Shown here: positions 1-16,098 of the stretch, in pieces
How the letters are laid out: the number at the start of each line of letters is the position of its first letter
How positions within the stretch are numbered: position 1 is the first letter of the stretch
DNA from: Acetobacter oryzoeni
Lineage (GTDB): Bacteria; Pseudomonadota; Alphaproteobacteria; Acetobacterales; Acetobacteraceae
DNA length: 64,000 nucleotides
Assembly: GCF_004014775.2 (NCBI RefSeq)
Contig: NZ_CP042808.1
Span: 1,826,001-1,890,000 of the forward strand
Reading direction: 5' to 3'
Position numbers and translations under genes: made by a program
The notes under the pieces: generated by a model
The model's database searches: none
What the model was told of the DNA's origin: nothing
What the model saw: the letters and a program-made list of their open reading frames with translations, nothing else

Positions 1-176
1 CGTAAAAGCGATATTCGCGTCAGCTTCCATTCCGATATTGAAGCCGAGTTCCCGCGTATTCATGATCTTGTGAACCGGACAAACCAGCTCAATTTCACCA
101 AGAACCGGTGGCCAGAAGATATTGAAGAAGCACGCCTGCGCTTTAGAGAAGAAGTGGAAGCCGATTTTGATACAGA
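1..176 (+). repeat. Long inverted repeat, left copy (pairs with 10593-10768)
   Basis: Bases 1-176 equal the reverse complement of 10593-10768 with no mismatch that I could find. Identity falls to very roughly 90 percent beyond base 176. The repeat may extend to the left of the window. It lies inside two paralogous FkbH-like genes of opposite orientation. Confidence 0.85.
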
Positions 177-1245
177 TGTTGGCTATGTAAAAGTTGCCGA
201 TGCCTACGGGAACTACGGCATTTGTGGATTTTACCTTTCACGCAAGGATGAATTTCTGCACTTCCTGTTCTCCTGCCGCACAATGAACATGGGGGTAGAA
301 CAGTTTGTATGGCAGAAGTTGGGGAAACGCCGCGTGCCTATTCAAGGCAAAGTAGGCTCCAAACTTGAAGATCCGATTGTTGACTGGATTAAAGTTGTTG
401 AAGATGTAGATGCTTCAACGGAAACATCATCAGCCTCTGCAAAGCGCCTGAAAGTGTGTATTCGCGGCGCATGCGATATGATGATGACCTCCAATTTCTT
501 GCGTACAAAAGTCGATACGCTTGAAGAGCTGAACTACGCCTACGAAGGTTGGGAAATTATCGCCTCCCCTCGCTTTGTTGCCCTCACGCGTGATCTGAAA
601 GACGATCGGAACAGGGAAATTATTGCGCATCTTCCTGGCATGCCTGATGGACGCTTTAAAACCGATATTCTTGAAGAAACATCAGATGTGTATGTTCTGT
701 CTTTTTCTCAGGAATCTTTCCACGGCCTTTATCAGTCCAAAACCACAGGCATGATTGTGCCAATGGGCCATTTTGGCCTGCCCTATCATCTGCCTGGTGG
801 GCCGAAAGATAAGTTTGATTACACGTCTGTTTCCTACGATGATCTTGTGAATAAATATGGCGTAGAACACGTCTCGCAAGAACAGTGGGACTTCTTTAGA
901 AAAGAATTTGTTTTCCTGGGTGGTTTTAACAAAAATCTGTTCTTGAAAGATTTGCGTTATATTTTCAATCGCATGATGGCCGCGCAAAAGAAAGTTATCA
1001 TCATTGGGCTAAATCAGGCTGTTGGGCGCGATCATAAGCTTTTGGAATTTTTTGCTGAAATCAATTCCATTGTGCGCCCTCTGGCTGAAAAATATAAGTT
1101 TGATTACATTGATGTAAACGATATCGTTCGGTCTGAAGATGATTTAGCGAAAGATGGCATGTTTGGCGGAGCTCATTTTGACCGTCCAGCCTACAAAACA
1201 ATATCAGATAAAATTCTCTCTCTGTTACCTACGTCTGCGGCGTAA
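1..1245 (+). CDS. FkbH-like protein, 3' part only (GNAT-like and SGNH-like domains)
   Basis: The reading frame is open from the first base, so the gene starts outside the window; 414 codons are visible. The first part aligns with the acyltransferase-like segment that follows the HAD domain in FkbH proteins (NRTNQLNFTKNRW). The rest is a C-terminal domain with a G-x-C-D motif near base 470 and an AHFDR motif near base 1170, which resembles the first and last blocks of SGNH hydrolase-like domains. It is a close paralogue of the reverse-strand gene at 9491-11719: bases 1-176 are identical to the reverse complement of 10768-10593, after which the two diverge. The HAD domain presumably lies upstream of the window. 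It is followed after 43 bases by another FkbH-like gene on the same strand, probably in one transcript. The catalysed reaction is unknown; FkbH relatives load glyceryl groups onto carrier proteins. Confidence 0.8.
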   Translation, partial: RKSDIRVSFHSDIEAEFPRIHDLVNRTNQLNFTKNRWPEDIEEARLRFREEVEADFDTDVGYVKVADAYGNYGICGFYLSRKDEFLHFLFSCRTMNMGVEQFVWQKLGKRRVPIQGKVGSKLEDPIVDWIKVVEDVDASTETSSASAKRLKVCIRGACDMMMTSNFLRTKVDTLEELNYAYEGWEIIASPRFVALTRDLKDDRNREIIAHLPGMPDGRFKTDILEETSDVYVLSFSQESFHGLYQSKTTGMIVPMGHFGLPYHLPGGPKDKFDYTSVSYDDLVNKYGVEHVSQEQWDFFRKEFVFLGGFNKNLFLKDLRYIFNRMMAAQKKVIIIGLNQAVGRDHKLLEFFAEINSIVRPLAEKYKFDYIDVNDIVRSEDDLAKDGMFGGAHFDRPAYKTISDKILSLLPTSAA

Positions 1246-1288: not shown

Positions 1289-3520
1289 ATGATAGAAACT
1301 AAGACTTTTCGCGGGCAATCTACCATTCTGTCACCGCAACTTACTGAAATGACTTGGACTTTTGGTGCGGAAGGACAGTTTCCTCTCACGACAACTCTCA
1401 AACTTACTCCTGATGGAAAGATTGTTGGTTATTCTCATCCCAATGAATCTTTCTGGAGAATAGAAAACCACAAACTCCTGCTTCTAAAAGAAAATGGAGA
1501 ACTGATGTGGCGTGCCGCAAAGGTTGTTAAAAATCAGGACGGCCTTCTAACAATGTTGTTAGACACGCCTGAAGATCCAAATACACATTTTATATTGCAG
1601 CAAAATCCGGCCAATAGCGCGCCAATACCAGCGCCAGAACAGGCTTCTGCCGGGTCTGCTATGCCAGCACCTGCACCTGCTCAAGCACAGCCTTCTGGCA
1701 TTCCTGATGCAGAATACCTTTTCCCTGCCGATCTAGAAGTAACACCAACAAAAGTTAAAAAGGTGCTGCTCATTGGTTCATGCTTGACTGCGCTTTACCT
1801 GGAACAGTTTCAGAAACGCTACCCAGCCACTGCCTTTGATTACGTTCCCTATAACTTTGTGAGCGTGCTGCCTCCTGCTCCTCCAGCTCCTGTTGGAGAA
1901 TATGACTTCCAATACATCCAGATCCCCCTACGCTCTGTCATAACAGATCGTATCATATGGGGCTTCCGCTTTAATGAAGCGGGGTTTGCAAATACACTCT
2001 TGCAAGATGCTTTTGCTGTTATTGATGTCATGCTGGATGCAGCAATGGTCTATAATAAACAGCATGGGCTGTTGGCCTTTGTATCCAACTTCATTGTGCC
2101 GCAGATGAACAGCGCTTCCAGCATACACGGGCGCGGTAGCATGAACGATATTGCTGCCCTTGTACGCCGGCTCAATGAATATCTCAGCTCAAAAGTTGCC
2201 GAATATAATAACGCGTACCTTGTAGATATAGATGCTGTTGCCAGTTCTATCGGAAAGCGATTTGTGCTGGATGATATGATCTACTTCTACTCTCATGGTG
2301 CTGTGGCATATCAAGATTGGGATGATTTTGGATCCATTGCCAGAAATGAGCCCATTCCCCCGCTGGAACAGTCTTACCCCATTAAAAGAGATGCTTTTGT
2401 AGATGCGGTTTTCCGCCAAGCCGTGTGCACTTACCGCAGCGTAAAGCAGATTGATCAGGTTAAGGCCGTTATATTCGATCTGGATAATACATTGTGGCGT
2501 GGGCAGATTGCCGAACACTACCGCCCAGAAGCACGCCCATGGCCCCGTACGGATGGCTGGCCCTTGGGAATATGGGAAACAATCCACCACCTACGCGCGC
2601 GTGGTATCTTGGTCGCTATCTGCTCCAAAAATGATTATGACTATGTAAAAGAAAGATGGGCAGACGTTGTTGATCCAAACTTTGTTTCACTAGATGATTT
2701 TGCATCGGTGAAAATCAACTGGACCCCGAAAGCGCAAAATATTTCTGAAATCTGCAAAGAATTCAACATTAAGCCCAAAAGTGTTGTGTTTGTAGATGAT
2801 AACCCTGTTGAGCGCGCTGCTGTTACATCTGCCTTCCCCGAAATCAGAGCTATTGGGGGTAACCCTTATCTTACCCGCCGCATTCTTTTGTGGGCTGCTG
2901 AAACACAGGTGGCGCGCCTTACAGAGGAATCCAGCCGTCGGGAAGAAATGATCCGTAGCCAGATAGACCGTGAAGAAACACGCTCGTCTATGGACAGAGA
3001 TGACTTTCTGGCCTCTCTTAACTGCGAGGTTAGCTTTACGATCATTACCAACACGGACCAGCCAGAATTTGGCCGCGCCCTGGAACTGACCAACAAGACC
3101 AACCAGTTCAATACAACTGGCAAGCGTTGGTCTTTTGAAGAAGTTGCCGATTTCCTGAAAGCAGGCGGGAAGCTCCTGTGCTTCCGCGTAAAAGATAGAT
3201 TCACCGACTACGGGCTAGTAGGTGTTCTCTATGTCAAGGGCACAGAGATTGTTCAATACGTTATGAGTTGCCGTGTGTTGGGCATGGAAATTGAAGAATT
3301 TGTTGTTGCCGAAGCTGTACAACTCCTCCGTTCAGATCATAATGGTAACGTAGATATTATCGCACTGCTTAAAGAAACTCCTGACAACACTCCATGCCGA
3401 GAAGTATATTTACGTACTGGATTCCGAGAACTTTTATCATCTAACAATATGAGAACTTTTGTCTTGGACAGTGATGAAGTTCCATTCATACCGTTGCACA
3501 TTACAAAAAATACTAAATAA
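1289..3520 (+). CDS. FkbH-like protein (beta module, SGNH-like, HAD-IIIC, GNAT-like)
   Basis: This is a 743-residue multidomain protein. Residues about 15-105 form a module with the pattern DGKIxGYxHPNExxW. A Pro/Ala-rich linker follows (about 108-137). Next is an SGNH-like domain opening with GSC at 163-165. The HAD-IIIC phosphatase domain has DLDNT (D397, D399), CSKND, and VDDN (D503, D504). A GNAT-like C-terminal domain (NKTNQFNTTGKRW) ends the protein. The order SGNH-HAD-GNAT is that of standard FkbH-like proteins, to which the N-terminal module has been added. Known FkbH enzymes dephosphorylate 1,3-bisphosphoglycerate and load glyceryl onto an acyl carrier protein; no carrier protein gene is seen here, so the acceptor is open. 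The neighbours suggest modification of a surface glycan. An inverted repeat that could terminate transcription follows the stop codon. Confidence 0.85.
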   Translation: MIETKTFRGQSTILSPQLTEMTWTFGAEGQFPLTTTLKLTPDGKIVGYSHPNESFWRIENHKLLLLKENGELMWRAAKVVKNQDGLLTMLLDTPEDPNTHFILQQNPANSAPIPAPEQASAGSAMPAPAPAQAQPSGIPDAEYLFPADLEVTPTKVKKVLLIGSCLTALYLEQFQKRYPATAFDYVPYNFVSVLPPAPPAPVGEYDFQYIQIPLRSVITDRIIWGFRFNEAGFANTLLQDAFAVIDVMLDAAMVYNKQHGLLAFVSNFIVPQMNSASSIHGRGSMNDIAALVRRLNEYLSSKVAEYNNAYLVDIDAVASSIGKRFVLDDMIYFYSHGAVAYQDWDDFGSIARNEPIPPLEQSYPIKRDAFVDAVFRQAVCTYRSVKQIDQVKAVIFDLDNTLWRGQIAEHYRPEARPWPRTDGWPLGIWETIHHLRARGILVAICSKNDYDYVKERWADVVDPNFVSLDDFASVKINWTPKAQNISEICKEFNIKPKSVVFVDDNPVERAAVTSAFPEIRAIGGNPYLTRRILLWAAETQVARLTEESSRREEMIRSQIDREETRSSMDRDDFLASLNCEVSFTIITNTDQPEFGRALELTNKTNQFNTTGKRWSFEEVADFLKAGGKLLCFRVKDRFTDYGLVGVLYVKGTEIVQYVMSCRVLGMEIEEFVVAEAVQLLRSDHNGNVDIIALLKETPDNTPCREVYLRTGFRELLSSNNMRTFVLDSDEVPFIPLHITKNTK

Positions 3521-3531
3521 AAATATTATTA

Positions 3532-3559
3532 TACATGGAGGGTTAAAACTCTCCATGTA
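3532..3559 (+). terminator. Hairpin after FkbH-like gene
   Basis: A perfect 9-base inverted repeat (TACATGGAG / CTCCATGTA) with a 10-base loop begins 12 bases after the stop codon of the gene ending at 3520. No clear T-run follows, so a terminator or mRNA-stabilising role is inferred from position. Confidence 0.5.
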
Positions 3560-3689
3560 CTTACGTATTATTTAATAATGTTTATGAATTTATATATTTT
3601 TATTATTTTTCTCTTTTCATCTAATTTGAGAATAATTGAGGGTTACTTTTGATGTAAAAACAAGTCTTGCTTATCTAAGCAACGACATA

Positions 3690-4100
3690 GGTATCCTACC
3701 CTTTAATCCGATGCTTAATGTGCAAGCACCTCCCTCAGGCTACTAGCTGCTCTGCGATCAAGACCCGATGGGTCTACGAACAGACGCACCAGCAACTTAA
3801 AGGGGAACTTGGACCTTGATCACTTTGAAGGGCGATCATGAACCGACACGCACTGATGTCATGATGGCCTACGCCTTTTTCCAGTGCCGGCACTTCACAG
3901 TGGTCGGGCGGAAAAAAGAGTCACCGCCCCACTTCTACAGCCTATCCTGCCAGCAATACGACAGGCCTCCCTTGATCGCATCCTGCGACTACCCACCGGG
4001 CAATGTCCGCATTGTAGAAACCTTCTATGCCAGACCGCAAAACGCATTCTGCCAAAGTAGTGCTAGTAGCCGACCGAGTTCCACTAAAAACACAGTCCGT
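3690..4100 (+). pseudogene. Decayed IS701/IS4-like transposase C-terminal fragment
   Basis: Conceptual translation across at least three frameshifts gives HQQLKGELG, then GLDHFEGRS, then RHALM and MAYAFFQCR. This is the conserved C-terminal block of IS701/IS4-type DDE transposases. Stops and frame changes show that it is dead. No terminal inverted repeats or target duplication were recognised. The remaining part of the 661-base interval between the two flanking genes shows no gene. The open frame at 3816-4103 is a by-product of this relic. Confidence 0.65.
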
Positions 4101-4181
4101 TAGCGTTACAGAGACACATCAAATGACCGACGATGTTCAATAGACTTCAATATAAACTTCCTCGATCTCGCGACCTCTGTG

Positions 4182-5999
4182 TTATTTCTCCAACATAGAA
4201 AGCATTTTTATCTGGTTTTCTCCCAAAAATTCTTTTCTTTGGGAGATTTTTTGCAACAAGGTATCAAGTTTATTTTTGAAGATATCTACATTGATTGATA
4301 TTTCATATTTCACTGTAGGAATCGATAACATTTTTTCATATTCTTCATAAAAATGATCACGTAAAAAAGATATATCTGGGAATGACAAACTATCAGATGT
4401 AACTGTATTCTCCGCTTCAAAATGTTCTAAAAACCATGTTACTAGTATTTCATTGAAAGACGTATTTAAAAAGTCAGTATTCTTGGGGTGATCGCCACGA
4501 TTGCGAGCAGACTTCCAAATAAATTCTTCTATAGACTTAAAATAGTAGTGATAAATGACTGCAAAACGTGAATCCGGTGCGTCATTCAGATGCTTTCCTA
4601 AAGGTCCATGTTTTTCTTCATTTTGTCGTGTCTTAAGCAGATTACCCACACTATTACGTCTGATAAACGAATAATTATCAAATTCCACTGGAAAATGAGG
4701 ATAAGATTTTGCAGCCTTCGCCGGACGAAAAATTGTTTTTAATTTTTCATGCTCCAGAAATCCTTTATTTGAAAATCTATCAAAATAAGGCTCTTCACTC
4801 CAAGTTATTTGTTTATTACTTCCTATGTTAATCCAGTCAAAAGCAACGGTATCAACCTGCTTTTTTTCTAAAAATTCGAAATAAGATTTGAGATCCTTAA
4901 ATTGTTTTTTATCATAAACAAATAACTCATCCAAATCTACGATTAAAACCCAACGGTAATTTAATATCTGTGGTAAAAAACTCAACGCGTGTGCATAAGC
5001 TTTACCTTGAACATTTACACCATCTTTGGATACCGTTTCAAAGAATTCCAAGTAATCTTCTTGCTCTAAAGATGAAAGAATACCTCTCGAGTTATCTTCG
5101 CAATCATTAATATAGAGATAAATACCATCAAATCCAATTGATTTGTAATAAGAAACCCATTCTGCCAAATAAATTCCTTCATTTCGGGCAGTTGCTAACA
5201 CACAGAAATCATGCGTAGGCTTGACCAGTGCACGTATCGTGCGCACAATCGTTTCGGTAGCAGAGGCAGATCGCGTGCCATAACCATCGAACGGAACAAT
5301 TTCGTCACTAAGAAAATCAAAGTCTTTACCTACAATATAGGATGTAGGTTTTGTATTTCGGTTATTTAGCCAGGTTGTTAACGGTTTCAGGCCAAACGAA
5401 CTCCAAATCGACTGATCCTGATCACAGATAATATTAACCCACTCAGTATCTCTTGAAATGTGAGAGCATATTTGTTCCAATTCTTCTAATTTAATATGTC
5501 TGATATGTGCAAAAAATCCTAAGATAATAGATTTTTTTTCTTGCTCACTGGATAATTCTGAAAAGCACGAATAATTTTCCAAAAAATTCTCTATGGAGTG
5601 CACGACCTCAACAACATATTTCTTTTCCGCAATACAAGAATATTCAATTTTTCGTAATGTAAAGAGCTCCCACTCTTGCATATTACGTGCTTCAAAAGTC
5701 AACCAACCCCAATCAACACTCGTCAGAAAAAAACCATTAGACACATCGGTAAATGCAACTTGGTTAACATTTGCGTAAAAAACATTGAGTGAATAAACAC
5801 ACTCCCCAAAAGGGTCATCTGCGCAAAATACTTTTCTTTTACTTTCTGGTATTATATAACCAATATTCTGATTGCGACTTGAAATAAAAAGGAAAACATC
5901 GCTACAATCCTTATTGTCTTTTTTAGGCGCTAACGTTCCATCGGTATTAAGGCCTATCTCTCGCCCAAAATGATCAATTATCTTATAAAAATTTTCCAT
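4182..5999 (-). CDS. Glycosyltransferase (GT2/GT92-like, Glyco_tranf_2_4) with extra N-terminal domain
   Basis: The protein has 605 residues. I chose the ATG at 5999 because GAAGGAAAA lies just upstream; an upstream start would add 11 residues. The catalytic part starts near residue 265 with LATARNEGIYLAEWVSYY, then IYLYINDCEDNS, and a metal-binding DLDE at about 355-358. A late RNRGDHPK motif is typical of this family. It is likely a cytoplasmic or membrane-associated enzyme that transfers a sugar from a nucleotide donor. The first 250 residues are not part of the usual fold. They include a stretch (WGWLTFEARNMQEWELFTL) that resembles one repeat of a fascin-like beta-trefoil, perhaps a carbohydrate-binding module. 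The gene is strikingly A+T-rich and is divergent from the exported-protein gene at 6157. Donor and acceptor cannot be told from sequence. Confidence 0.8.
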   Translation of the reverse strand: MENFYKIIDHFGREIGLNTDGTLAPKKDNKDCSDVFLFISSRNQNIGYIIPESKRKVFCADDPFGECVYSLNVFYANVNQVAFTDVSNGFFLTSVDWGWLTFEARNMQEWELFTLRKIEYSCIAEKKYVVEVVHSIENFLENYSCFSELSSEQEKKSIILGFFAHIRHIKLEELEQICSHISRDTEWVNIICDQDQSIWSSFGLKPLTTWLNNRNTKPTSYIVGKDFDFLSDEIVPFDGYGTRSASATETIVRTIRALVKPTHDFCVLATARNEGIYLAEWVSYYKSIGFDGIYLYINDCEDNSRGILSSLEQEDYLEFFETVSKDGVNVQGKAYAHALSFLPQILNYRWVLIVDLDELFVYDKKQFKDLKSYFEFLEKKQVDTVAFDWINIGSNKQITWSEEPYFDRFSNKGFLEHEKLKTIFRPAKAAKSYPHFPVEFDNYSFIRRNSVGNLLKTRQNEEKHGPLGKHLNDAPDSRFAVIYHYYFKSIEEFIWKSARNRGDHPKNTDFLNTSFNEILVTWFLEHFEAENTVTSDSLSFPDISFLRDHFYEEYEKMLSIPTVKYEISINVDIFKNKLDTLLQKISQRKEFLGENQIKMLSMLEK

Positions 6000-6156
6000 T
6001 GCTTTTCCTTCAAAAGTCATTAAATATACCAATTTTTAAATACATAATCTTAAATTTGAAATCAAGATTTTTTATTTCAACTGTTCTTTCTTTTATGATT
6101 TGAAAGAGTTGGTGAAAAATCTTCAGGAAAACACTTTTGATAAGAAGGAAGCTTAA

Positions 6157-7854
6157 ATGCTATTAAATTTTTTCTCCTATCGGAAGATAAAAAACGATAT
6201 ATTTTTAGGATTATCTTTTTTTTTATTTTCCTACTCCTTATGTGAAGCACAAGACTTTTCATCTATTTATGATCACCCCAAACATCTGCTGAATTTAGGT
6301 GATGTCTTCAATCAGAATAACATTAATGCGGATTCAATACAGAAATTTTACGATGATTTACCAGATGGTTCCGTCGTTGAGATTCCAAAATATTTATCTT
6401 GGAATGGGTATATACCCAAACCAGAACCTCAAAAACGTATCTCGTGGATTTTCGATGACAAAATTAGTGGCTGGTGGCCAGCCCCTGCTGGGGACGGTGA
6501 TTTGTCAATACAATACAATAGTGGCTTAGAAGTTAGCTCACGTTTCTTAAAAAATAAACACTTTTTATATCCAGCAGATTTTTTCCTCTGGAACGATGAT
6601 CCTAATTTTCTTGGACCATGGAACTACCATTGGCAACAATATTCACCCGCCAATTTCAGAGCCATTAGTGGTCCCGTCAGTTCTGGAAATACCAGTGCGA
6701 TTACTGCTAGTTTGAATTCTTACGGTCAAAATCCTAGTGCTTCATATGATGTAGGTCTTTCTCTTAATATGAGCAAGTATGGGCAAAACTCCAACTGGGG
6801 ACTTGTGATTGATCAGACAGATTTTTCAGCAAAATCACCAGGAGCATTCGCTCAGTGGAATGAATATGACGTATGGGCAAATGGTAGTGATATTCAAACG
6901 TGGGATCCTAATTATGGTCTTCCTCAGGCAGGTCACAGGTCTATCTTCTTCATTAATGCTCATCATTTAGGGTGGCCAGACTGGAAACCTCTTACCCCGA
7001 TTAAAGTTGATCCTCTTATTCAAGGATCTCTACCTGTGCCTAAAGTTATTAATACGACAGCACCAGATCATCAGCAATATATATGGTATGCAATATCTTC
7101 GGGGACTACTGGGACAAATCCCCCCTTATTTCCAGCTCCAGCTAAAATTGTCGCCACATTGCATCATAGCATTATGAAAGTTACAAAGATCGTTTCTGGC
7201 AACATTAACGCGGGCGATTATATCACAGGCTCTCTACCTGTTACGCCTGTAAAAATCAACAAACAGATAAGAGGAATAAAAGGAAAAGAAGGATTGTATG
7301 AACTTGAAAATTTTTCAGGCGAAATTGATAATCTTCAGCCTTTTTATGTTGCTCCTCGAATATATGACAATGATGTCATATGGCAATTTGGTGAAGAACT
7401 GAACATGACAGTTTCATCTGGGATTTTTTTCAGCGGTGGGGATACATACGATACAATTCTTGCGGTCGATAAAAACAATACCGTATCAAATGCCATTATT
7501 GATTCTACATTAGCGACATTAGCTAAAGAAGCAGCCGTTTTAAGAATGAGTAAGGGACAGTCAATCGATTTTAGTAGTAATGGAGCCCTAGATCATCGTA
7601 ATAATCATACTTTAGATTATGATAATGGTGCGCTCAATTACAAAGTTTCTGGGAAAACCGTTTTTTCCATTAGCGATAATGGGCAAATAAAATCGCAAGC
7701 ACCTGCAACACTCCCCCTTTTCTCACGACGTGAGATTCTGGTATTCCCATTTCCTAAAAAGGGAATGGAAATATATGATACGGATGACGATGCTATAGCT
7801 ATTTATACAGGAAAAGATTGGAAATTATTATCCCTTTCTAAAATACCTTCTTAA
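6157..7854 (+). CDS. Large exported protein of unknown function
   Basis: I do not recognise this 565-residue protein. It begins with a basic stretch and a hydrophobic run (about residues 16-30) ending in a plausible signal-peptidase site near CEAQ-DF, so it is probably exported. The start is supported by AAGGA about 8 bases upstream of the ATG. The body is rich in Trp, Tyr, Asn, Gly and Ser. The middle section has many WDPNYG/WPDW-type aromatic clusters, which suggests a beta-rich carbohydrate-active or phage-tail/adhesin-like fold. The C-terminus (about 470-565) has short repeats of the form NGALDH / NGALNY, then a small domain ending in IAIYTGKDWKLLSL, similar in style to C-terminal segments of tail-fibre or surface proteins. 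It is divergent from the glycosyltransferase at 4182-5999 and shares its A+T-rich composition, so both probably arrived together. Confidence 0.7.
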   Translation: MLLNFFSYRKIKNDIFLGLSFFLFSYSLCEAQDFSSIYDHPKHLLNLGDVFNQNNINADSIQKFYDDLPDGSVVEIPKYLSWNGYIPKPEPQKRISWIFDDKISGWWPAPAGDGDLSIQYNSGLEVSSRFLKNKHFLYPADFFLWNDDPNFLGPWNYHWQQYSPANFRAISGPVSSGNTSAITASLNSYGQNPSASYDVGLSLNMSKYGQNSNWGLVIDQTDFSAKSPGAFAQWNEYDVWANGSDIQTWDPNYGLPQAGHRSIFFINAHHLGWPDWKPLTPIKVDPLIQGSLPVPKVINTTAPDHQQYIWYAISSGTTGTNPPLFPAPAKIVATLHHSIMKVTKIVSGNINAGDYITGSLPVTPVKINKQIRGIKGKEGLYELENFSGEIDNLQPFYVAPRIYDNDVIWQFGEELNMTVSSGIFFSGGDTYDTILAVDKNNTVSNAIIDSTLATLAKEAAVLRMSKGQSIDFSSNGALDHRNNHTLDYDNGALNYKVSGKTVFSISDNGQIKSQAPATLPLFSRREILVFPFPKKGMEIYDTDDDAIAIYTGKDWKLLSLSKIPS

Positions 7855-7883
7855 GCATAATTTTGATAAACGGGAGTTTTATT

Positions 7884-7982
7884 TTGAATATACTTGGTCG
7901 ATTTCGTTATTCTTCTCATGAAGAAATGGAAAAACGTCGCAGAAAAAGTTTTTCTGTATTTAATAAAGTTCTACCCCTCTGA
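7884..7982 (+). CDS. Possible very small protein (32 aa)
   Basis: A TTG-initiated frame of 32 codons lies just after the exported-protein gene. A possible ribosome site (CGGGAG) sits 8 bases upstream. The product would be short and strongly basic (EKRRRKSF). It may be a genuine small gene or the truncated 5' end of a gene cut off by the IS debris that starts immediately downstream. It has no recognisable family. Confidence 0.2.
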   Translation: MNILGRFRYSSHEEMEKRRRKSFSVFNKVLPL

Positions 7983-7989
7983 ACTAATT

Positions 7990-8250
7990 GAGAAGTAAAA
8001 GTCGTGCTCATACTGAGATATATTTCGACAGAAACTTGGAGATTTTTTTTCGGAAATGCGAAGGATCTACAATCGAAAAACCGTTCAATGATGTTTCGTT
8101 GTTTATAAAGCGGGAATAGGGTTTTACGGGGATTGCGTCTGTTTTTTCTTGAAGGAATAACCGGTGTGATCTATCGTTATTCACGCTTTTCAATGAGCGG
8201 ATCGGCTTCATCAAGCAGTGGCTCTGCTTCAGTGATGTCGGTCCTTTGTT
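7990..8250 (-). pseudogene. Decayed IS5 (IS427-group) transposase, C-terminal part
   Basis: Reading the minus strand across frame changes gives ITEAEPLLDEADPLIEK, then PVIPSRKNRRNPRK, then LYKQRNIIERFF. These are the conserved C-terminal blocks of IS427-type IS5 transposases, including the catalytic-Glu neighbourhood (IERFF). Stop codons interrupt every frame. No intact ends were found. It abuts a second, differently typed IS5 relic at 8410-9189. Confidence 0.65.
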
Positions 8251-8409
8251 CAGGCATCAGAGAAAGCATCACAATCTGGAGGGATCGAAGAACCGTTGAT
8301 TGATGCGCCTTTTTTTGGATTTTGGGCTTTTGGCGTTTTGATTGATGGTTGCCGTGGTGGCATTCGATCTGCGTTTTGAGCAGATCGGAAGGTGCCATCC
8401 ACTGGATTG

Positions 8410-9189
8410 CTATGCTGTGGCGCTGATCCGCTCCATGAAGAAGAAGCGGCGCATGTTGTAGACAATATTAGCTAGCCCGCCCCTCATTGCGGCCCGGGTG
8501 ATGCCTACTATCCAGATGAACAGTCCCGTTTGTGACTTTTGACCGGCAAAGAGGTGCTCAACGCGGGATCGAATCACCGACTTTCCAGAATTTGATTTCT
8601 GGACATGCCGGAGCGTGGGCTTGAGATGTGGTTTTTCCTGTGAACTTTCGAGACAAATCCTGCTTTTCCATGAAGTCTTCATTAGCCTCTAAACGATACG
8701 CCGTGTCTGCCCACACCGTTGAGGCTGTATTGGTTTTATACAGAAGTCCCTCTCTCTCTCGCGCTCCATCACTGGTGGCGGCATCGGTTGTTTTCCATTT
8801 GCGGATCAGACGAAACTTCCGGTCGATGGAAACATGCGATTTGCCGCCAAAGAACGGGATGGCGAGATCCGTTGCGGGAATCGTTTCGTCATCCTGATGC
8901 TTCGCTTTGGTAAACTTCAGTGCCCAGCGCGCATGAAGGAGAGACGGTCGTTGATCTGGTATTCCGTCCGTTCGTCGGAGAGATTGTTCAGGGGCTGGAT
9001 GACCAGAATTTTAAACATCAGCACTGGATCAAACGGTGGACGCCCGCCTCTCCCGTCCGAATACACCCGTATCTTGTCCAGGTCAGGGCGGCACACTTCA
9101 AAATCCACAGTCCGAAAAAACGCTTCGAGTTGGCCACCAAGCCCACTCAGCCGAGCAAGCCGCTCTTCATCATCTATCCTTCCAATCAA
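8410..9189 (-). pseudogene. Decayed IS5-family transposase with internal deletion
   Basis: The N-terminal part is well preserved from 9189 down to about 8920 (RPPFDPVLMFKILVIQ, NDRLSFMR). The frame then jumps to a segment reading RWALKFTKAKH, DLAIPFFGGKSHVSID and NTASTVWADTAYR. A further frame shift leads to the end (VIRSRVEHLFAGQKS). About 80 or more residues expected between SFMR and RWALKF are missing, and with them part of the catalytic core. The reading frame is broken at least twice, so the copy is inactive. The stretch 9190-9430 between it and the next relic shows no gene. Confidence 0.8.
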
Positions 9190-9429
9190 CGCAGAAGAAA
9201 TGGAATCACAGAGCAGGTCTCAAAACTAGAGAGTTTTTCGACCCCTCCACCTTCGCGACCTGGGAGAGGATTTTTTATCCGCTCCCACTCAGACCTTATC
9301 GCATCTATATACTTCCTCGAAAAATAGGGAGAAAACATCATAAAATGCGGCAATGTACAAGGTCAGTATCGCTACCCGTTAACTGACGACACGCTCTAGC
9401 ACTCCACGAAAAACAGACCTGCTGCGTTA

Positions 9430-9490
9430 CAAGCATCGCAACCCGCTACGACAAGACCGCCCCGTCCTTCACAAGTCTCCTAAATATCAA
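9430..9490 (+). pseudogene. IS427-type transposase C-terminal scrap
   Basis: A short frame reads IATRYDKTAPSFTSLLNI, the signature C-terminal end of IS427-group IS5 transposases. It ends right at the stop codon of the convergent FkbH-like gene at 9491, so the IS inserted at, or was deleted up to, the 3' edge of that gene. Confidence 0.55.
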
Positions 9491-11719
9491 TCAACTGTTC
9501 TTTAATTTCTCCGAATAATTGATGGTAATATTTAGAATTTTATCAGAAATATTTTTATATACTAACCGATCAAAATGCGCACCACCCAATGCACCGTCAT
9601 TAGCAAGGTCATCTTCTGATTTAACAAAATTTTCCATTTTCAAATAATGGAAGCCATATTTTGCAACAATAGGCTCGACAATAATATTTATTTTCTCATT
9701 AAATTTCATAAGATCAATATCTTTACCAATCTTAGAATTCAATCCCAAAATAATAACTTTTTTATTAGCATTTCTTAACCTATTAAAAATATAATGAATA
9801 TCATTTTCAAAAAGTTCTTTATTAAACCCACCAAAAAATATAAATTCTTCTCGAAAAAATTCCCACTGATCCTTTGTGCAACCTGTTGTAATTCCCCAAT
9901 CTAAGACTTCTTGATATGTTAATTTAGTATAATCATTTTTGGAATATGGATCCCACGCATGCCCACCTGGCATATAGTACCATGGAAGCCCTACATTCCC
10001 TAATGGTAAAATCATGCCTGTCGTTTTGGATTGATACAAACCATGAAAAGATTCTTGAGAAAAAGACAGAACATATACATCTGATGTTTCCTCAAGAATA
10101 TCTGTATCAAAACGATGAGGCGGCATAGCCGGAAAACGAGCAACTATCTCCCGATTTCTTTGATCTTTTAAATCTTCTCCAGCAACATATACAATACGAG
10201 GTGTAGTTACGATTTCCCATCCCTCATAAGGATAATTAAATTCTTCAACTGTATCGACTTTCGTGCGCAAGAAATTGGAGGTCATCATCATATCGCATGC
10301 GCCGCGAATACACACTTTAAGACGGTTTGCAGAAAATGATGATGCGTCTGTTGCTTTATCTACATCTTCAACGACATTAATCCAGTCCACAATCGGATCT
10401 TCAAGTTTGGAGCCTACTTTGCCTTGAATAGGAACGCGGCGTTCCCCCAGTCTGCGCCACACAAACTGTTCTACCCCCATGTTCATTGTACGGCAGGAAA
10501 ACAGGAAGTGTAGAAATTCCCCTTTACGTGAAAGGTAAAATCCGCAGATGCCGTAATTCCCGTAGGCATCGGCAACTTTTACATAGCCAACGTCTGTATC
10601 AAAATCGGCTTCCACTTCTTCTCTAAAGCGCAGGCGTGCTTCTTCAATATCTTCTGGCCACCGGTTCTTGGTGAAATTGAGCTGGTTTGTCCGGTTCACA
10701 AGATCATGAATACGCGGGAACTCGGCTTCAATATCGGAATGGAAGCTGACGCGAATATCGCTTTTACGCAAGAAAGCTTCATTATCGCCGCCAGTGGCAG
10801 CCATATCCTTGTGTTTGGATTCCAGAACCTGATAGCGCTTGAGGCGGCTATGCTCTGGGTCTGTTTTGCCTTTAAATCGTGGATTATCCAGCAAGTTTTC
10901 CAAAACAGCGGGTTCAGCCACGTTCAACTCTGGTACAAAATGCTTGGCTTCGTTCAGATTTGTAACGTTATCATCAATGAACAACACGGTTTCAGGGCGA
11001 AGCTGGATTTTTTCGATAATGTCCTTAACTAGTGGTCCCTTCGGCCCCCATGAAATGCGTGGGAAAACAAAATCATCCCATATCCGAAGCTGTTCCAGAC
11101 GCGCTTTAACGTCCTCAAACGTATTGCGTGAGCAAATGGCATTCACAATGCCTCGGGCATTCAATGTTTTTACAATATCAATATTGCGCTGAATGGGGGA
11201 GATTTCCCCTTCAGAGAGAGTGCCTTTCCAGAAGGTGTCATCCAAATCCCAAATAACCAGCCGAATGCCTTCTTGCTGCTGGTTTTTCCCTTCAGACAAT
11301 CGACTCAATATATTTCCAGACAAATATTGATCCTCAGTTAAAACCAAGTTATTCAAATCGTATTCTGGAGGGATAATATCAGATTTTTCTATGATATTAT
11401 TATTGCTTCCTATTAAATTAAAAATAACTCCCCATTCAGGATCCTGTGACGGCCCACTAAAGAAATATATTTTATTTTGAAATATGAAAAATGCTTCAAA
11501 TTTCCATGTTGGAGAAGCATCATGCGAAAGTATTTCTAAAATATTTTCATCATTTATACGCCATGAGCATTCATTTGGATGTTCATATCCTAGTATTTTT
11601 CCACTTGGATCGAACCTTAAACTTGTGGTCATAGGAGGTTGATTTACAGCCCCCCATATCCAATGCTGCTGCGTTAATAAATCGAAGATTTGTTTTTTGT
11701 TTAAGTGCAAACGTCCCAT
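9491..11719 (-). CDS. FkbH-like protein with permuted domain order (beta module, HAD-IIIC, GNAT-like, SGNH-like)
   Basis: The ATG at 11719 gives 742 residues, with GGAG about 9 bases upstream. Residues about 15-100 are the same DGKIxGYxHPNExxW-type module (here SGKILGYEHPNECSW) as in the 1289-3520 protein. A HAD-IIIC domain starts near residue 155 (WDLDDTFW, CSRNT, FIDDN). The GNAT-like part follows (NRTNQLNFTKNRW). About 300 C-terminal residues make an SGNH-like domain with RGACDMMM and a late AHFDR. The SGNH-like part therefore sits at the C-terminus, not in front of the HAD domain as in the 1289-3520 protein. It is a paralogue of the fragment at 1-1245, in inverted orientation. The 3' and 5' thirds look more A+T-rich than the middle, which suggests a mosaic origin. 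The reaction is unknown; glyceryl or acyl transfer to a glycan is an inference from the FkbH family. Confidence 0.85.
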   Translation of the reverse strand: MGRLHLNKKQIFDLLTQQHWIWGAVNQPPMTTSLRFDPSGKILGYEHPNECSWRINDENILEILSHDASPTWKFEAFFIFQNKIYFFSGPSQDPEWGVIFNLIGSNNNIIEKSDIIPPEYDLNNLVLTEDQYLSGNILSRLSEGKNQQQEGIRLVIWDLDDTFWKGTLSEGEISPIQRNIDIVKTLNARGIVNAICSRNTFEDVKARLEQLRIWDDFVFPRISWGPKGPLVKDIIEKIQLRPETVLFIDDNVTNLNEAKHFVPELNVAEPAVLENLLDNPRFKGKTDPEHSRLKRYQVLESKHKDMAATGGDNEAFLRKSDIRVSFHSDIEAEFPRIHDLVNRTNQLNFTKNRWPEDIEEARLRFREEVEADFDTDVGYVKVADAYGNYGICGFYLSRKGEFLHFLFSCRTMNMGVEQFVWRRLGERRVPIQGKVGSKLEDPIVDWINVVEDVDKATDASSFSANRLKVCIRGACDMMMTSNFLRTKVDTVEEFNYPYEGWEIVTTPRIVYVAGEDLKDQRNREIVARFPAMPPHRFDTDILEETSDVYVLSFSQESFHGLYQSKTTGMILPLGNVGLPWYYMPGGHAWDPYSKNDYTKLTYQEVLDWGITTGCTKDQWEFFREEFIFFGGFNKELFENDIHYIFNRLRNANKKVIILGLNSKIGKDIDLMKFNEKINIIVEPIVAKYGFHYLKMENFVKSEDDLANDGALGGAHFDRLVYKNISDKILNITINYSEKLKNS
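10593..10768 (-). repeat. Long inverted repeat, right copy (pairs with 1-176)
   Basis: This is the other arm of the inverted repeat, inside the FkbH-like gene at 9491-11719. The exact identity over 176 bases, flanked by more diverged homologous sequence, is what recent gene conversion or recombination between paralogues leaves behind. Confidence 0.85.
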
Positions 11720-11939
11720 CAACTTTTCTCCAACTCTTATTATAATTTAATCTATTTATGATTGATTATTATTGCAATCAAGATAAGAAAAAGTAGTCCT
11801 TATTGTCCAGATCAAAACTGAAGGGTTCTAAAAACCTTTTGGTTCTAAGACTCTATCTCTGCTTCTATTCTCCAAGCGTTGATTGGAGAGAATGGTGAGA
11901 TGAAGCAATTTACTTTCTTCAATGTTTAAGAGTGACTAG

Positions 11940-12370: not shown

Positions 12371-12398
12371 CCTAGCTTTCTTTAAATTAAAGCTAGGA
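12371..12398 (-). terminator. Hairpin at the end of the DUF4422 gene
   Basis: A perfect 9-base inverted repeat (CCTAGCTTT / AAAGCTAGG) overlaps the stop codon of the minus-strand gene ending at 12393. No T-run follows on the minus strand, so termination is only suggested. Confidence 0.4.
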
Positions 12399-13187
12399 CC
12401 ATGATAACATTGGTACGTAATTCACCCTGAGAAGAGGATTTTCCATTTTTTTCTGAAAAAGATAGTATGAGAATATTTTTTCAGAATAATACCCTAACTC
12501 TCTTGGATGATTGTGAAGTATTTTCCCTAAATTCTTAACAATTTCGTACCAAAATTCCATATATTCATTAAAGTAATCTCTCCTCATAATAAACGAACAT
12601 CTATAATTTGTGGTTGTATGGTTAAAATCTACGAACATTGGTTTGTTTGAAAAATAAGAACATGATGTGAGAACATGTTCTAATATATTATCATCGCAAA
12701 ATTCACTTTTTGTACTGATATTTTGAGATCTTACACAAAAAATATCATATTCCGAAACTTTTTGTTTCAGAATATGATTGTATTCCGTTTTGTTTTCTCG
12801 CCTTACTTTCATTACGTTATCAAACGCAACACTATCATGAAAAATTTCTTTTAATTGATCTTTTTCTATTTTTTTTCTTAAAAGTAAAATACTTGGATAT
12901 TGATCCTTAACAATAGAGTAAGGAAGATAATCTACATACAACAACCTTCTAAAATGCTCAAATCCTATATAATCATAGTTTTGCAAATGATTTTTCCAAA
13001 TATAATAATGTGCCCTCATTTCAGAATGAGTATCTTCAAATGCTATATTATCCTCATGATCAAGGTCTCCAAAAAAACAATTTTCTTTAGATTTCTGTCC
13101 TATGATAAAATCTGAAAAAATATCATTAGACATATAATCTACATGTTCATCAAAAAAATGAGTCACCCTGAAAATCTTTAACTTCAT
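12393..13187 (-). CDS. DUF4422-family glycosyltransferase-like protein
   Basis: The ATG at 13187 gives 264 residues; a GTG 27 bases upstream is an alternative, and neither has a strong ribosome site. The pattern EMRAHYYIWKN followed by YDYIGFEHFRRLL is characteristic of the DUF4422 family. That family is found in capsule and exopolysaccharide clusters and is regarded as glycosyltransferase-like. A second conserved region (KVSEYDIFCVRSQ) lies near residue 150. No signal peptide or membrane segment is seen, so a cytoplasmic enzyme is likely. The gene is very A+T-rich and is isolated between two stretches of IS debris. It is on the same strand as the FkbH-like gene at 9491-11719 and the GT17 gene at 14599-16098, so the three may be remains of one locus. 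Substrates are unknown. Confidence 0.75.
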   Translation of the reverse strand: MKLKIFRVTHFFDEHVDYMSNDIFSDFIIGQKSKENCFFGDLDHEDNIAFEDTHSEMRAHYYIWKNHLQNYDYIGFEHFRRLLYVDYLPYSIVKDQYPSILLLRKKIEKDQLKEIFHDSVAFDNVMKVRRENKTEYNHILKQKVSEYDIFCVRSQNISTKSEFCDDNILEHVLTSCSYFSNKPMFVDFNHTTTNYRCSFIMRRDYFNEYMEFWYEIVKNLGKILHNHPRELGYYSEKIFSYYLFQKKMENPLLRVNYVPMLSWS

Positions 13188-13309
13188 AATAAAACCAACT
13201 TTTTCAAATCTCACTGAAGATAAAATAAATCAAAACAGCAGCACGCACAATGGTAATCCCCACACAAAAAAGTGGCGTTTGAATAAGAATTTTCTCAACG
13301 TAAGAATGA

Positions 13310-14598: not shown

Positions 14599-16098
14599 TT
14601 ATACTTTTTTGTAGATATAAACTTTATCTAAATGAAGGCACTGAAAATCATTCAGGGAAAGTTTTACAAACCGAGCTTTTGTTGCCGTTTTCGGTGAAAA
14701 TATTAAAGGTTTTCCATCAAGCCCACCAATAAGATAGTCACTTTGATGGAGATAGATAGTTTTGAAAATTTTCCCATCTTCGGATACGGAAATCTGAAGG
14801 GTGCTCAAACGTTTCAAAACTTCGTGGTCAGATGAATTTGGAAAAATACGGTTAAACACACGTATTTCCGAAATATCATAAATGCTTTCTAAATCAGCCA
14901 TCCACCAAGGATTTTGTTCTTGTTCTGTATGGCAACTAAAAAGACCGGTTGGAGTACCCGATAAGGCATTTGTAGCATCTTCAGCACAGGTACGTCCTTT
15001 TGACCAAGCGCAAATAGAACTCTGAGTTGCCTGCTTCCCTTCACTAACAAGCATACCTTTGGGAAGTGGTTGAGGTAAACGATTTTGGTCAACAGGAATA
15101 GGATGTTCATCACAGAGAGCGAACTCTAAGAAGCGCAAAGCCGAAAGATAATTGAGTTCTTCTTGAGGAACTGGGTTTCCAACCTCTCTAAGAGCATAAG
15201 AACGACGAACTTTCACGAATAACTCTTGCAGAGTTTTGTGAGCATCATAAATATTTCTTATATAACCATTTTTTTGAAAATACTCGACATTTTCAAGAAT
15301 GTATTTCGGGAATGTTTTATCAACTGGCACATATTCCGCCAGTTCATCGAAACGAAAGATACGAGTGCCAATATCAATTTGCTGCTTCAGACGGTTCCGA
15401 TCTTTCATGAGATTAGGCCAAGGATCATCTGAATGTGCATAAGCGTGAAATTTCTTTTCTAAAGCATCAAGCCCACCCATATTGGTAAAATGCCAGCCAG
15501 AGTCATTTCTGACCGTAACCGGAATCGATAAATGGTAAGCCTCATGTAGTAGAGTATAACGCATGTAAGTAAATAAATAAAAATTCCAGTCATTTTCTGT
15601 AATATTTTTTTCTCTATTCAATGAATCTAAGATATTAATATATTTTTTCTGAATAGCATATGGATGCCACCATCCTTTTCGCTCAAGAAGATTAAAATAA
15701 TATTGATACATATTCATTGAAAAATATGTAATACCATCAAATTTTTTTGCAAAACGAATCGCATCAAGTGTTGGAATCTCATCGATATCTGTATGAATGA
15801 TAAGGTCATCAGGCTGCGCACGCTGCACAATACGCATCATTTGTTCACGTTGATATGCATCTCTTTTAAACTGATCTAAACCTTCAGGAAATGATAGTAT
15901 AGGTAAATAAATGATTTTGTGAGCATATTTTTTATAGCGACTATTATTTTCCTGAAAAAATAAATTTTTCTTTTTCCCCATATAATTATAAGATGATTCA
16001 CAGATAACAAAGTAATCAACCACTTCATCAAGTTCTGCTAATCGTATATCAAGAAGGTCAAATTCATTAAAAAACGAAAAACAATCAAATACAGCCAT
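14599..16098 (-). CDS. GT17-family glycosyltransferase with C-terminal F5/8-type C domain
   Basis: The protein has 499 residues, with GGGAG 7 bases upstream of the ATG. The N-terminal half matches glycosyltransferase family 17 (relatives of beta-1,4-mannosyl-glycoprotein GlcNAc transferase). It opens with FDCFSFFNEFDLLDIRLAEL, carries VDYFVICESSYNYMGKKK, and has a DID metal motif at 104-106 in HTDIDEIP. From about residue 350 to the end there is a discoidin/F5/8 type C-like domain (VSEGKQATQSS, NPWWMADLESIYDISEIRVFN, ARFVKLSL). This is a beta-sandwich that usually binds carbohydrate. The fusion suggests an enzyme that grips a polymeric or surface-attached glycan while transferring a sugar. 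No signal peptide is seen. The gene is A+T-rich and lies at the right end of the glycan locus. Confidence 0.85.
   Translation of the reverse strand: MAVFDCFSFFNEFDLLDIRLAELDEVVDYFVICESSYNYMGKKKNLFFQENNSRYKKYAHKIIYLPILSFPEGLDQFKRDAYQREQMMRIVQRAQPDDLIIHTDIDEIPTLDAIRFAKKFDGITYFSMNMYQYYFNLLERKGWWHPYAIQKKYINILDSLNREKNITENDWNFYLFTYMRYTLLHEAYHLSIPVTVRNDSGWHFTNMGGLDALEKKFHAYAHSDDPWPNLMKDRNRLKQQIDIGTRIFRFDELAEYVPVDKTFPKYILENVEYFQKNGYIRNIYDAHKTLQELFVKVRRSYALREVGNPVPQEELNYLSALRFLEFALCDEHPIPVDQNRLPQPLPKGMLVSEGKQATQSSICAWSKGRTCAEDATNALSGTPTGLFSCHTEQEQNPWWMADLESIYDISEIRVFNRIFPNSSDHEVLKRLSTLQISVSEDGKIFKTIYLHQSDYLIGGLDGKPLIFSPKTATKARFVKLSLNDFQCLHLDKVYIYKKV

Follow-up and report, generated by a model that had tools for sequence, protein, structure and literature searches.

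Two FkbH-type proteins encoded in a single locus of Acetobacter oryzoeni combine the same kinds of module in two different orders, which we call type A (beta module, SGNH, HAD-IIIC, GNAT-like) and type B (beta module, HAD-IIIC, GNAT-like, SGNH). We propose, with about as much to be said for the idea as against it, that both are soluble acyl transferases that act on glycans without a carrier protein and that they stem from two FkbH lineages, with a donor and an acceptor that we infer. The observed parts of this proposal are the domain orders, the SGNH folds in the structural models, the conservation of Cys and His, the beta-module fusions, the tandem gene order and the homogenization of the type B core.

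Domain organization of the type A and type B proteins

The window, meaning the whole 64,000-nucleotide stretch that was analysed, corresponds to C1:1826001-1890000 of a 3.15 Mb genome (G000). It holds a type A gene, a solo type B gene and the end of a second, tandem type B gene:

1289..3520, plus strand: type A protein, 743 aa; beta - SGNH - HAD - GNAT
1337..1606, plus strand: A beta module, residues about 17-106 (model strands 22-105)
1736..2449, plus strand: A SGNH-fold domain, residues about 150-387; C165, H336
2450..2923, plus strand: A HAD-IIIC domain, residues about 388-545; D397-L-D399, S446-K-N448, D503-D504
2996..3493, plus strand: A GNAT-like domain, residues about 570-735; TNQFN and SCR motifs
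9491..11722, minus strand: type B protein, solo copy, 743 aa, TTG start; beta - HAD - GNAT - SGNH
11405..11680, minus strand: B beta module, residues about 15-106
10859..11278, minus strand: B HAD-IIIC domain, residues about 149-288; D159-L-D161, S198, K228, D250-D251
10403..10792, minus strand: B GNAT-like domain, residues about 311-440; TNQLN and SCR motifs (C410, 87/87)
9494..10330, minus strand: B C-terminal SGNH-fold domain, residues 465-743; C476, N662, H716
1..1245, plus strand: tandem type B, C-terminal 414 residues (GNAT-like and SGNH-like), cut by the window edge

The two orders were read with profiles derived from alignments of 80 A and 87 B relatives; 40 and 36 listed homologues, respectively, had been excluded by hand, for the most part fragments, overlong rows or near-duplicates. 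These profiles bear out the original prediction that both orders occur in one locus. Models of the two proteins (mean pLDDT about 90), which that prediction had called for, match solved structures of the three-layer SGNH fold in both cases, and the objection that the C-terminus of B might have no SGNH fold fails.

Type A passes the curated cut-off of the FkbH family TIGR01686 (211.9 versus 146.65 bits; 214.6 in the genome search). Type B misses it (136.4 bits, E 1.2e-39; 139 and 135.4 bits for two B copies in the genome search) but is homologous nonetheless. Both pass the HAD-IIIC family TIGR01681 (curated cut-off 35.75 bits) with 61.4 bits for A and 38.9 bits for B, and the DxD motif is conserved in each. 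At the level of Pfam, the A SGNH domain scores 15.4 bits against FkbH_N (PF21211), below the gathering score of 27, and the best trace for the B C-terminal domain is Lipase_GDSL_2, at a sub-cut-off 21.9 bits in the tandem copy.

The homologue lists comprise 243 proteins, including the three from the window. The full A order is found in 91 and the full B order in 86; 29 have the B order and 27 the A order without the beta module, in five a B core is preceded by three or five beta modules, and the last five are partial or doubled. A mixed domain order occurs in none of the 243, which were drawn from two lists seeded by A and B themselves. The proteins with tandem beta modules ahead of the core are the B relatives P0048, P0057, P0060, P0109 and P0067 (five modules in four proteins, three in one), and this multiplicity suggests a repeatable binding module. 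One further protein, P0104 (1217 aa), contains two complete HAD-GNAT-SGNH units in series.

Origin of the SGNH domains

Comparison of A with B by hhalign gave 99.9% for the beta modules, 99.6% for the HAD domains and 99.4% for the GNAT-like domains. The two SGNH domains gave 0.4% (E 0.16; 0.3% in a second comparison), so that no relation was detected, although an undetected profile relation is not proof that there is none. As a control, the A SGNH domain was compared with the N-termini of 27 ordinary FkbH proteins (39 rows minus three B-like, five odd and four very long ORFs) and matched them at 96.5% (E 9.1e-10, 172 columns), whereas the B SGNH domain reached 7.0% against the same 27 (E 0.0051, 96 columns), a weak hint at most. 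When searched alone, the B SGNH domain retrieved eight proteins, two of them known full-length-type relatives and six short metagenome ORFs, and no free-standing family.

The original prediction treated the two proteins as domain permutations of each other, the SGNH part having moved from in front of the HAD domain to the C-terminus. The shared module set agrees with this, but the relocation of a single SGNH domain does not emerge from the profiles: the A domain is of the standard FkbH N-terminal type and the B domain has no detectable relation to it. A lack of relatedness between the two SGNH parts had itself been named as grounds for giving up the idea, and sequence comparison found no relation. 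The underlying observation is partly confirmed, and the relocation idea is unsupported.

Trees built from the HAD-GNAT core separate A, B, ordinary FkbH and a third group, each of which falls on one side of a branch. Type A groups with ordinary FkbH and type B with the third group in the main tree of 55 cores, from which five long-branch rows were excluded (support 97/93; 98% of 200 bootstrap trees), and the same grouping is obtained with a support of 94 in a quick tree of 70 of the 135 distinct cores. A tree that forces A and B into one clade is 5.7 log units worse, and the AU test does not reject it (p-AU 0.27). Because of the SGNH profile results together with the core tree, we favour a history, read from sequence, in which A kept the SGNH domain of the ordinary FkbH N-terminus and B gained one separately at its C-terminus. 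Since the AU test leaves a joint A and B clade unrejected, we retain as a rival a true permutation, in which the SGNH domain of an A-like ancestor was relocated to give B and diverged strongly afterwards. Such a permutation, which we judge unlikely, would fit the identical module set of A and B (beta module included), the presence of G-x-C and a late His in both SGNH domains and the result of the AU test; it fits poorly with two SGNH profiles that are unrelated to each other when that of A still recognizes ordinary FkbH N-termini, and with the pairing of A and B with different groups in the unconstrained tree.

The third FkbH group, nearest to B in the core tree, consists of 14 rows (L054-L056, L058-L063, L065-L067, L069 and L071), in which about 260-315 residues with an H-C-x-E-C...P-x-C-Y/F motif precede the HAD-GNAT core; no SGNH domain was detected in these 14 rows. 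In other Pseudomonadota (L153, L150 and L160), FkbH domains lie in open frames of ~2700 residues (2696-2766 aa) and are possibly parts of giant multidomain enzymes.

Gene arrangement and the shared core of the two B copies

The full tandem B gene extends beyond the window (C1:1825014-1827245; L018:13014-15245) and encodes 743 aa from a GTG start, with 80% identity to solo B over query residues 144-732. It directly follows groEL, and its stop codon lies 43 bases before the start of A. The order groEL-B-A recurs in Acetobacter malorum DsW_057 (L124), with a B-A gap of 56 bases; in A. persici JCM 25330 (L112, L114) A and B stand side by side with broken frames, and in A. farinalis (L120) groEL is followed by A with no B between. 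Several pairs of database proteins share an equal longest contig (P0007/P0127, 4994; P0008/P0128, 5984; P0013/P0129, 13013; P0047/P0147, 9779; P0033/P0184, 73406; P0055/P0154, 208436), which suggests adjacency in these as well.

Elsewhere in the genome there is a second A gene without the beta module (C1:265245) and a third B-type gene (C1:1804182-1806150; L017:8188-10150), adjoining glf and a galactofuranosyltransferase gene. The latter is split between two overlapping frames and is either a broken gene or a sequence error. At the post-groEL site of A. pasteurianus-like genomes (L115:4927-7140, L123:7313-9535 and L064), other genes come after a divergent A with about 36-37% identity.

We considered whether A and B are obligate partners and rejected this. 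B was found in 2 of 20 genomes with A loci (20 of the 53 loci were checked) and in none of the 53 A-search loci within the flanking DNA examined. Conversely, a B match was obtained in 24 family genomes, and 8 of these also gave an A match, which in four of the eight (G018, G070, G130 and G145) covers the shared HAD-GNAT part only; the other 16 have no A-type match at E <= 1e-30 among the candidates scored, at most four per genome.

The two B copies are very unevenly conserved. Protein identity is 96.3% in the HAD domain and 96.6% in the GNAT-like domain, as against 45.1% in the beta module and 79.6, 56.8 and 54.7% in three parts of the SGNH domain. At fourfold-degenerate sites the pair matches at 102/120 positions in the core, 27/66 in the SGNH domain and 3/12 in the beta part, while comparison with the tandem B of A. 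malorum gives 30/108 in the core and 30/87 in the SGNH domain. The core thus differs from the SGNH domain within the pair (p 1.5e-9) and from the core in the orthologue comparison (p 5.9e-19), whereas the SGNH domain of the pair does not differ from that in the orthologue comparison (p 0.50). The longest identical run is 198 bases in the pair (residues 311-377) versus 22 in the orthologue comparison. From these fourfold-degenerate-site contrasts and the 198-base run it follows that the B core was recently shared between the copies, via gene conversion or end replacement. The exchange ends near the borders between domains, at residues about 149 and 450-490. In type A the pattern is milder, with the HAD domain just the best preserved of the domains.

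Judging from sequence divergence, we favour the view that the differing ends of the two B copies serve different acceptors. For A and B, either of the roles first suggested, two steps on one substrate or two acceptor types, may apply. Copies with a homogenized core and diverged ends would offer a naturally occurring test of which module determines the acceptor.

Putative active-site residues of the SGNH domains

SGNH enzymes are described with a Ser that follows strand 1 and, in block V, an Asp-His pair, of which the Asp is missing in some (PMC9487903). In both models, a Cys is the first helix residue after strand 1 (A strand 158-163, helix 165-177; B strand 469-474, helix 476-485). This nucleophile site is Cys in 76/80 rows and Ser in 4/80 for A (C165), and Cys in 87/87 for B (C476); the block I catalytic Ser of the superfamily is therefore absent from B (0/87) and present in A in those four rows only. 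The divergent A of L064 reads GSS, with Ser in place of Cys. The late His is kept in A (H336, 80/80) and B (H716, 86/87), as is the oxyanion or block III Asn (B N662, 85/87; A N267, 18/20 sampled rows). The Asp three residues before the block V His is not conserved, position 713 of B being Asp in 4/87 rows and position 333 of A being Phe in at least 90%. In the N-terminal SGNH domain of ordinary FkbH (n = 27), the His site is K, R or Q in 27/27 and the nucleophile site is Cys in 2/27, as read from an alignment of distant rows.

The core is intact in both types. The catalytic Asp residues of the HAD domain are conserved in A (D397 and D399, 80/80) and B (D161, 87/87; D159, 86/87), and all FkbH core motifs, including TNQ and SCR, are retained.

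Instead, the role of the SGNH domain could be structural or hydrolytic. In one such scenario, which seems to us rather unlikely, it would be an esterase that trims or proof-reads acyl groups, or a sugar-binding remnant, and transfer would fall to the GNAT-like domain. SGNH proteins are mostly hydrolases, and ordinary FkbH retains the domain despite missing catalytic residues, both of which would agree with this role; the near-invariance of Cys and His in A and B argues against it, as does the normal use of Ser by hydrolases of the superfamily as described (PMC9487903).

Beta module and probable glycan setting

The neighbourhood of A and solo B includes the following genes:

4182..6032, minus strand: glycosyltransferase, 616 aa (PF13704 / PF01697 GT92), convergent neighbour of A
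12393..13214, minus strand: DUF4422 protein, adjoining solo B
14599..16098, minus strand: GT17 glycosyltransferase with F5/8 type C domain (Pfam)

A Glft2-type galactofuranosyltransferase and a GtrII protein are encoded upstream. In Gluconacetobacter asukensis (L121), the gene that follows A shares 49% identity with the GT92-like neighbour of A in the window. Between the GT92-like gene and solo B, positions 6157-7854 encode a 565-aa protein with a secreted-like start and no Pfam match. A PADLOC run returned 0 families.

The beta module is found at four sites in this genome, each an FkbH gene, and in 30 of 249 family genomes (E <= 1e-5). In 15 regions from other genomes, 16 ORFs carry it. A Pfam scan of ten of these ORFs gave seven matches above cut-off (GT61 in three, Hexapep in two, DUF707 in two), one sub-cut-off sulfotransferase trace and two ORFs without a match. 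Glycosyltransferases and sugar-acetyltransferase-like proteins are among the fusion partners of the module. Among the B relatives, P0102 is fused to a GT2 domain (PF13704, the Pfam family also seen at 4182-6032 of the window), P0072 to an F5/8 type C domain and P0054 to DUF1796, and P0110 has a Hexapep match below cut-off. A glycosyltransferase match lies near 12/32 A loci versus 1/21 other FkbH loci, a comparison that is indicative only, given nine glycosyltransferase queries, unequal locus lengths and several close Acetobacter relatives. A glycan setting, as originally suggested, is likely in view of the fusions of the beta module and of B to glycosyltransferases and the glycosyltransferase neighbours. 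The beta module, to which Pfam gave no name here, can serve as a marker of an Acetobacteraceae glycan-enzyme set.

Proposed function

FkbH proteins are described as converting 1,3-bisphosphoglycerate to glyceryl-ACP (PMC7489565). In the assembled A and B proteins, the HAD-GNAT core would form an acyl thioester from an acyl phosphate, and the Cys of the fused SGNH domain, in place of an acyl carrier protein, may then take over the acyl group. The SGNH His and the oxyanion Asn could help the acyl group to move to a sugar hydroxyl or amine, while the beta module may be a docking element for the glycan or for glycan enzymes that act as partners. By analogy with FkbH, the group attached to surface sugars is perhaps glycerate. 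Passage from the core through the SGNH Cys to the sugar is the simplest mechanism because the core motifs are retained, no ACP gene is nearby and a Cys-SGNH domain is attached. Several points count against this explanation: the glycerate donor is borrowed from polyketide synthase work; the Cys site holds Ser in some A rows and in L064, and the Asp of DxxH is unconserved; and most A loci have no nearby glycosyltransferase match, within a limited query set.

Alternatively, A and B may play the ordinary FkbH role, in which an acyl carrier protein is charged with glycerate on the way to a polyketide-type or lipid product and the SGNH domain is an accessory. The score of A above the curated FkbH cut-off and the TNQ and SCR motifs, which are those of FkbH, are in keeping with this role. 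We nevertheless hold it to be quite improbable, given that the whole genome contains two PP-binding (ACP) matches, none within ~160 kb of an FkbH gene and the nearer about 160 kb away, and that glycan enzymes are both neighbours and fusion partners.

Returning to the transfer of acyl groups to glycans, a bolder and distinctly tentative extension, more apt to be wrong than right, is that two FkbH lineages independently became self-contained glyceroyl transferases that need no carrier protein, with a Cys-SGNH domain at the N- or C-terminal side. The B core would have been recombined while the acceptor-facing beta and SGNH ends varied, and the proteins would be modular surface-glycan acylators.

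Comparison with known systems

A and B share with FkbH proteins (TIGR01686; Mad7 and Mad14 of tetromadurin, as described in PMC7489565) the HAD-IIIC and GNAT-like core, the catalytic Asp, TNQ and SCR. They differ in the added beta module and Cys/His SGNH domain and in having no ACP gene beside them, and B differs further in its C-terminal SGNH domain and its score under the curated cut-off. The solved part of BF1531 of Bacteroides fragilis (PDB 3slr), its SGNH and HAD part, is without a beta module; its domain order is not that of B, which it matches via HAD alone (139 residues). No paper on BF1531 was found in the open-access literature searched.

The peptidoglycan O-acetyltransferase PatB (PDB 7tlv/7tjb/7trr) resembles the B C-terminal domain in fold only: PatB is described with Ser133-His305-Asp302 and an MBOAT partner (PMC12148441), whereas B has Cys476 and His716 and is fused to a HAD-GNAT core. 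In the polysaccharide enzyme WcbI, Cys14 and His201 are reported to hold the head group of acyl-CoA (PMC4104973), which recalls the Cys/His pair of A and B; compared by its description only, WcbI differs in having a novel fold, binding CoA and lacking a HAD domain, and it is described with no demonstrated activity.

A further comparison is with C. jejuni, in which the FkbH-domain gene cj1302 is reported in a flagellar-glycan locus and the glycan carries dimethylglyceric acid on pseudaminic acid (PMC7099621), a likeness to A and B at the level of the locus. FkbH-SGNH glycan transferases were not found described in the open-access literature searched, and in A and B FkbH cores are coupled to Cys-SGNH domains in two orders, probably for glycan acylation. 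Glyceroyl groups are called rare in a review of Bacteroidota (PMC12871550), and the gene behind the glyceroyl group on the glycan of Tannerella forsythia has been termed elusive (PMC6120980). For genes of this kind, FkbH-SGNH proteins in which the Cys/His site is conserved offer concrete candidates that can be tested.
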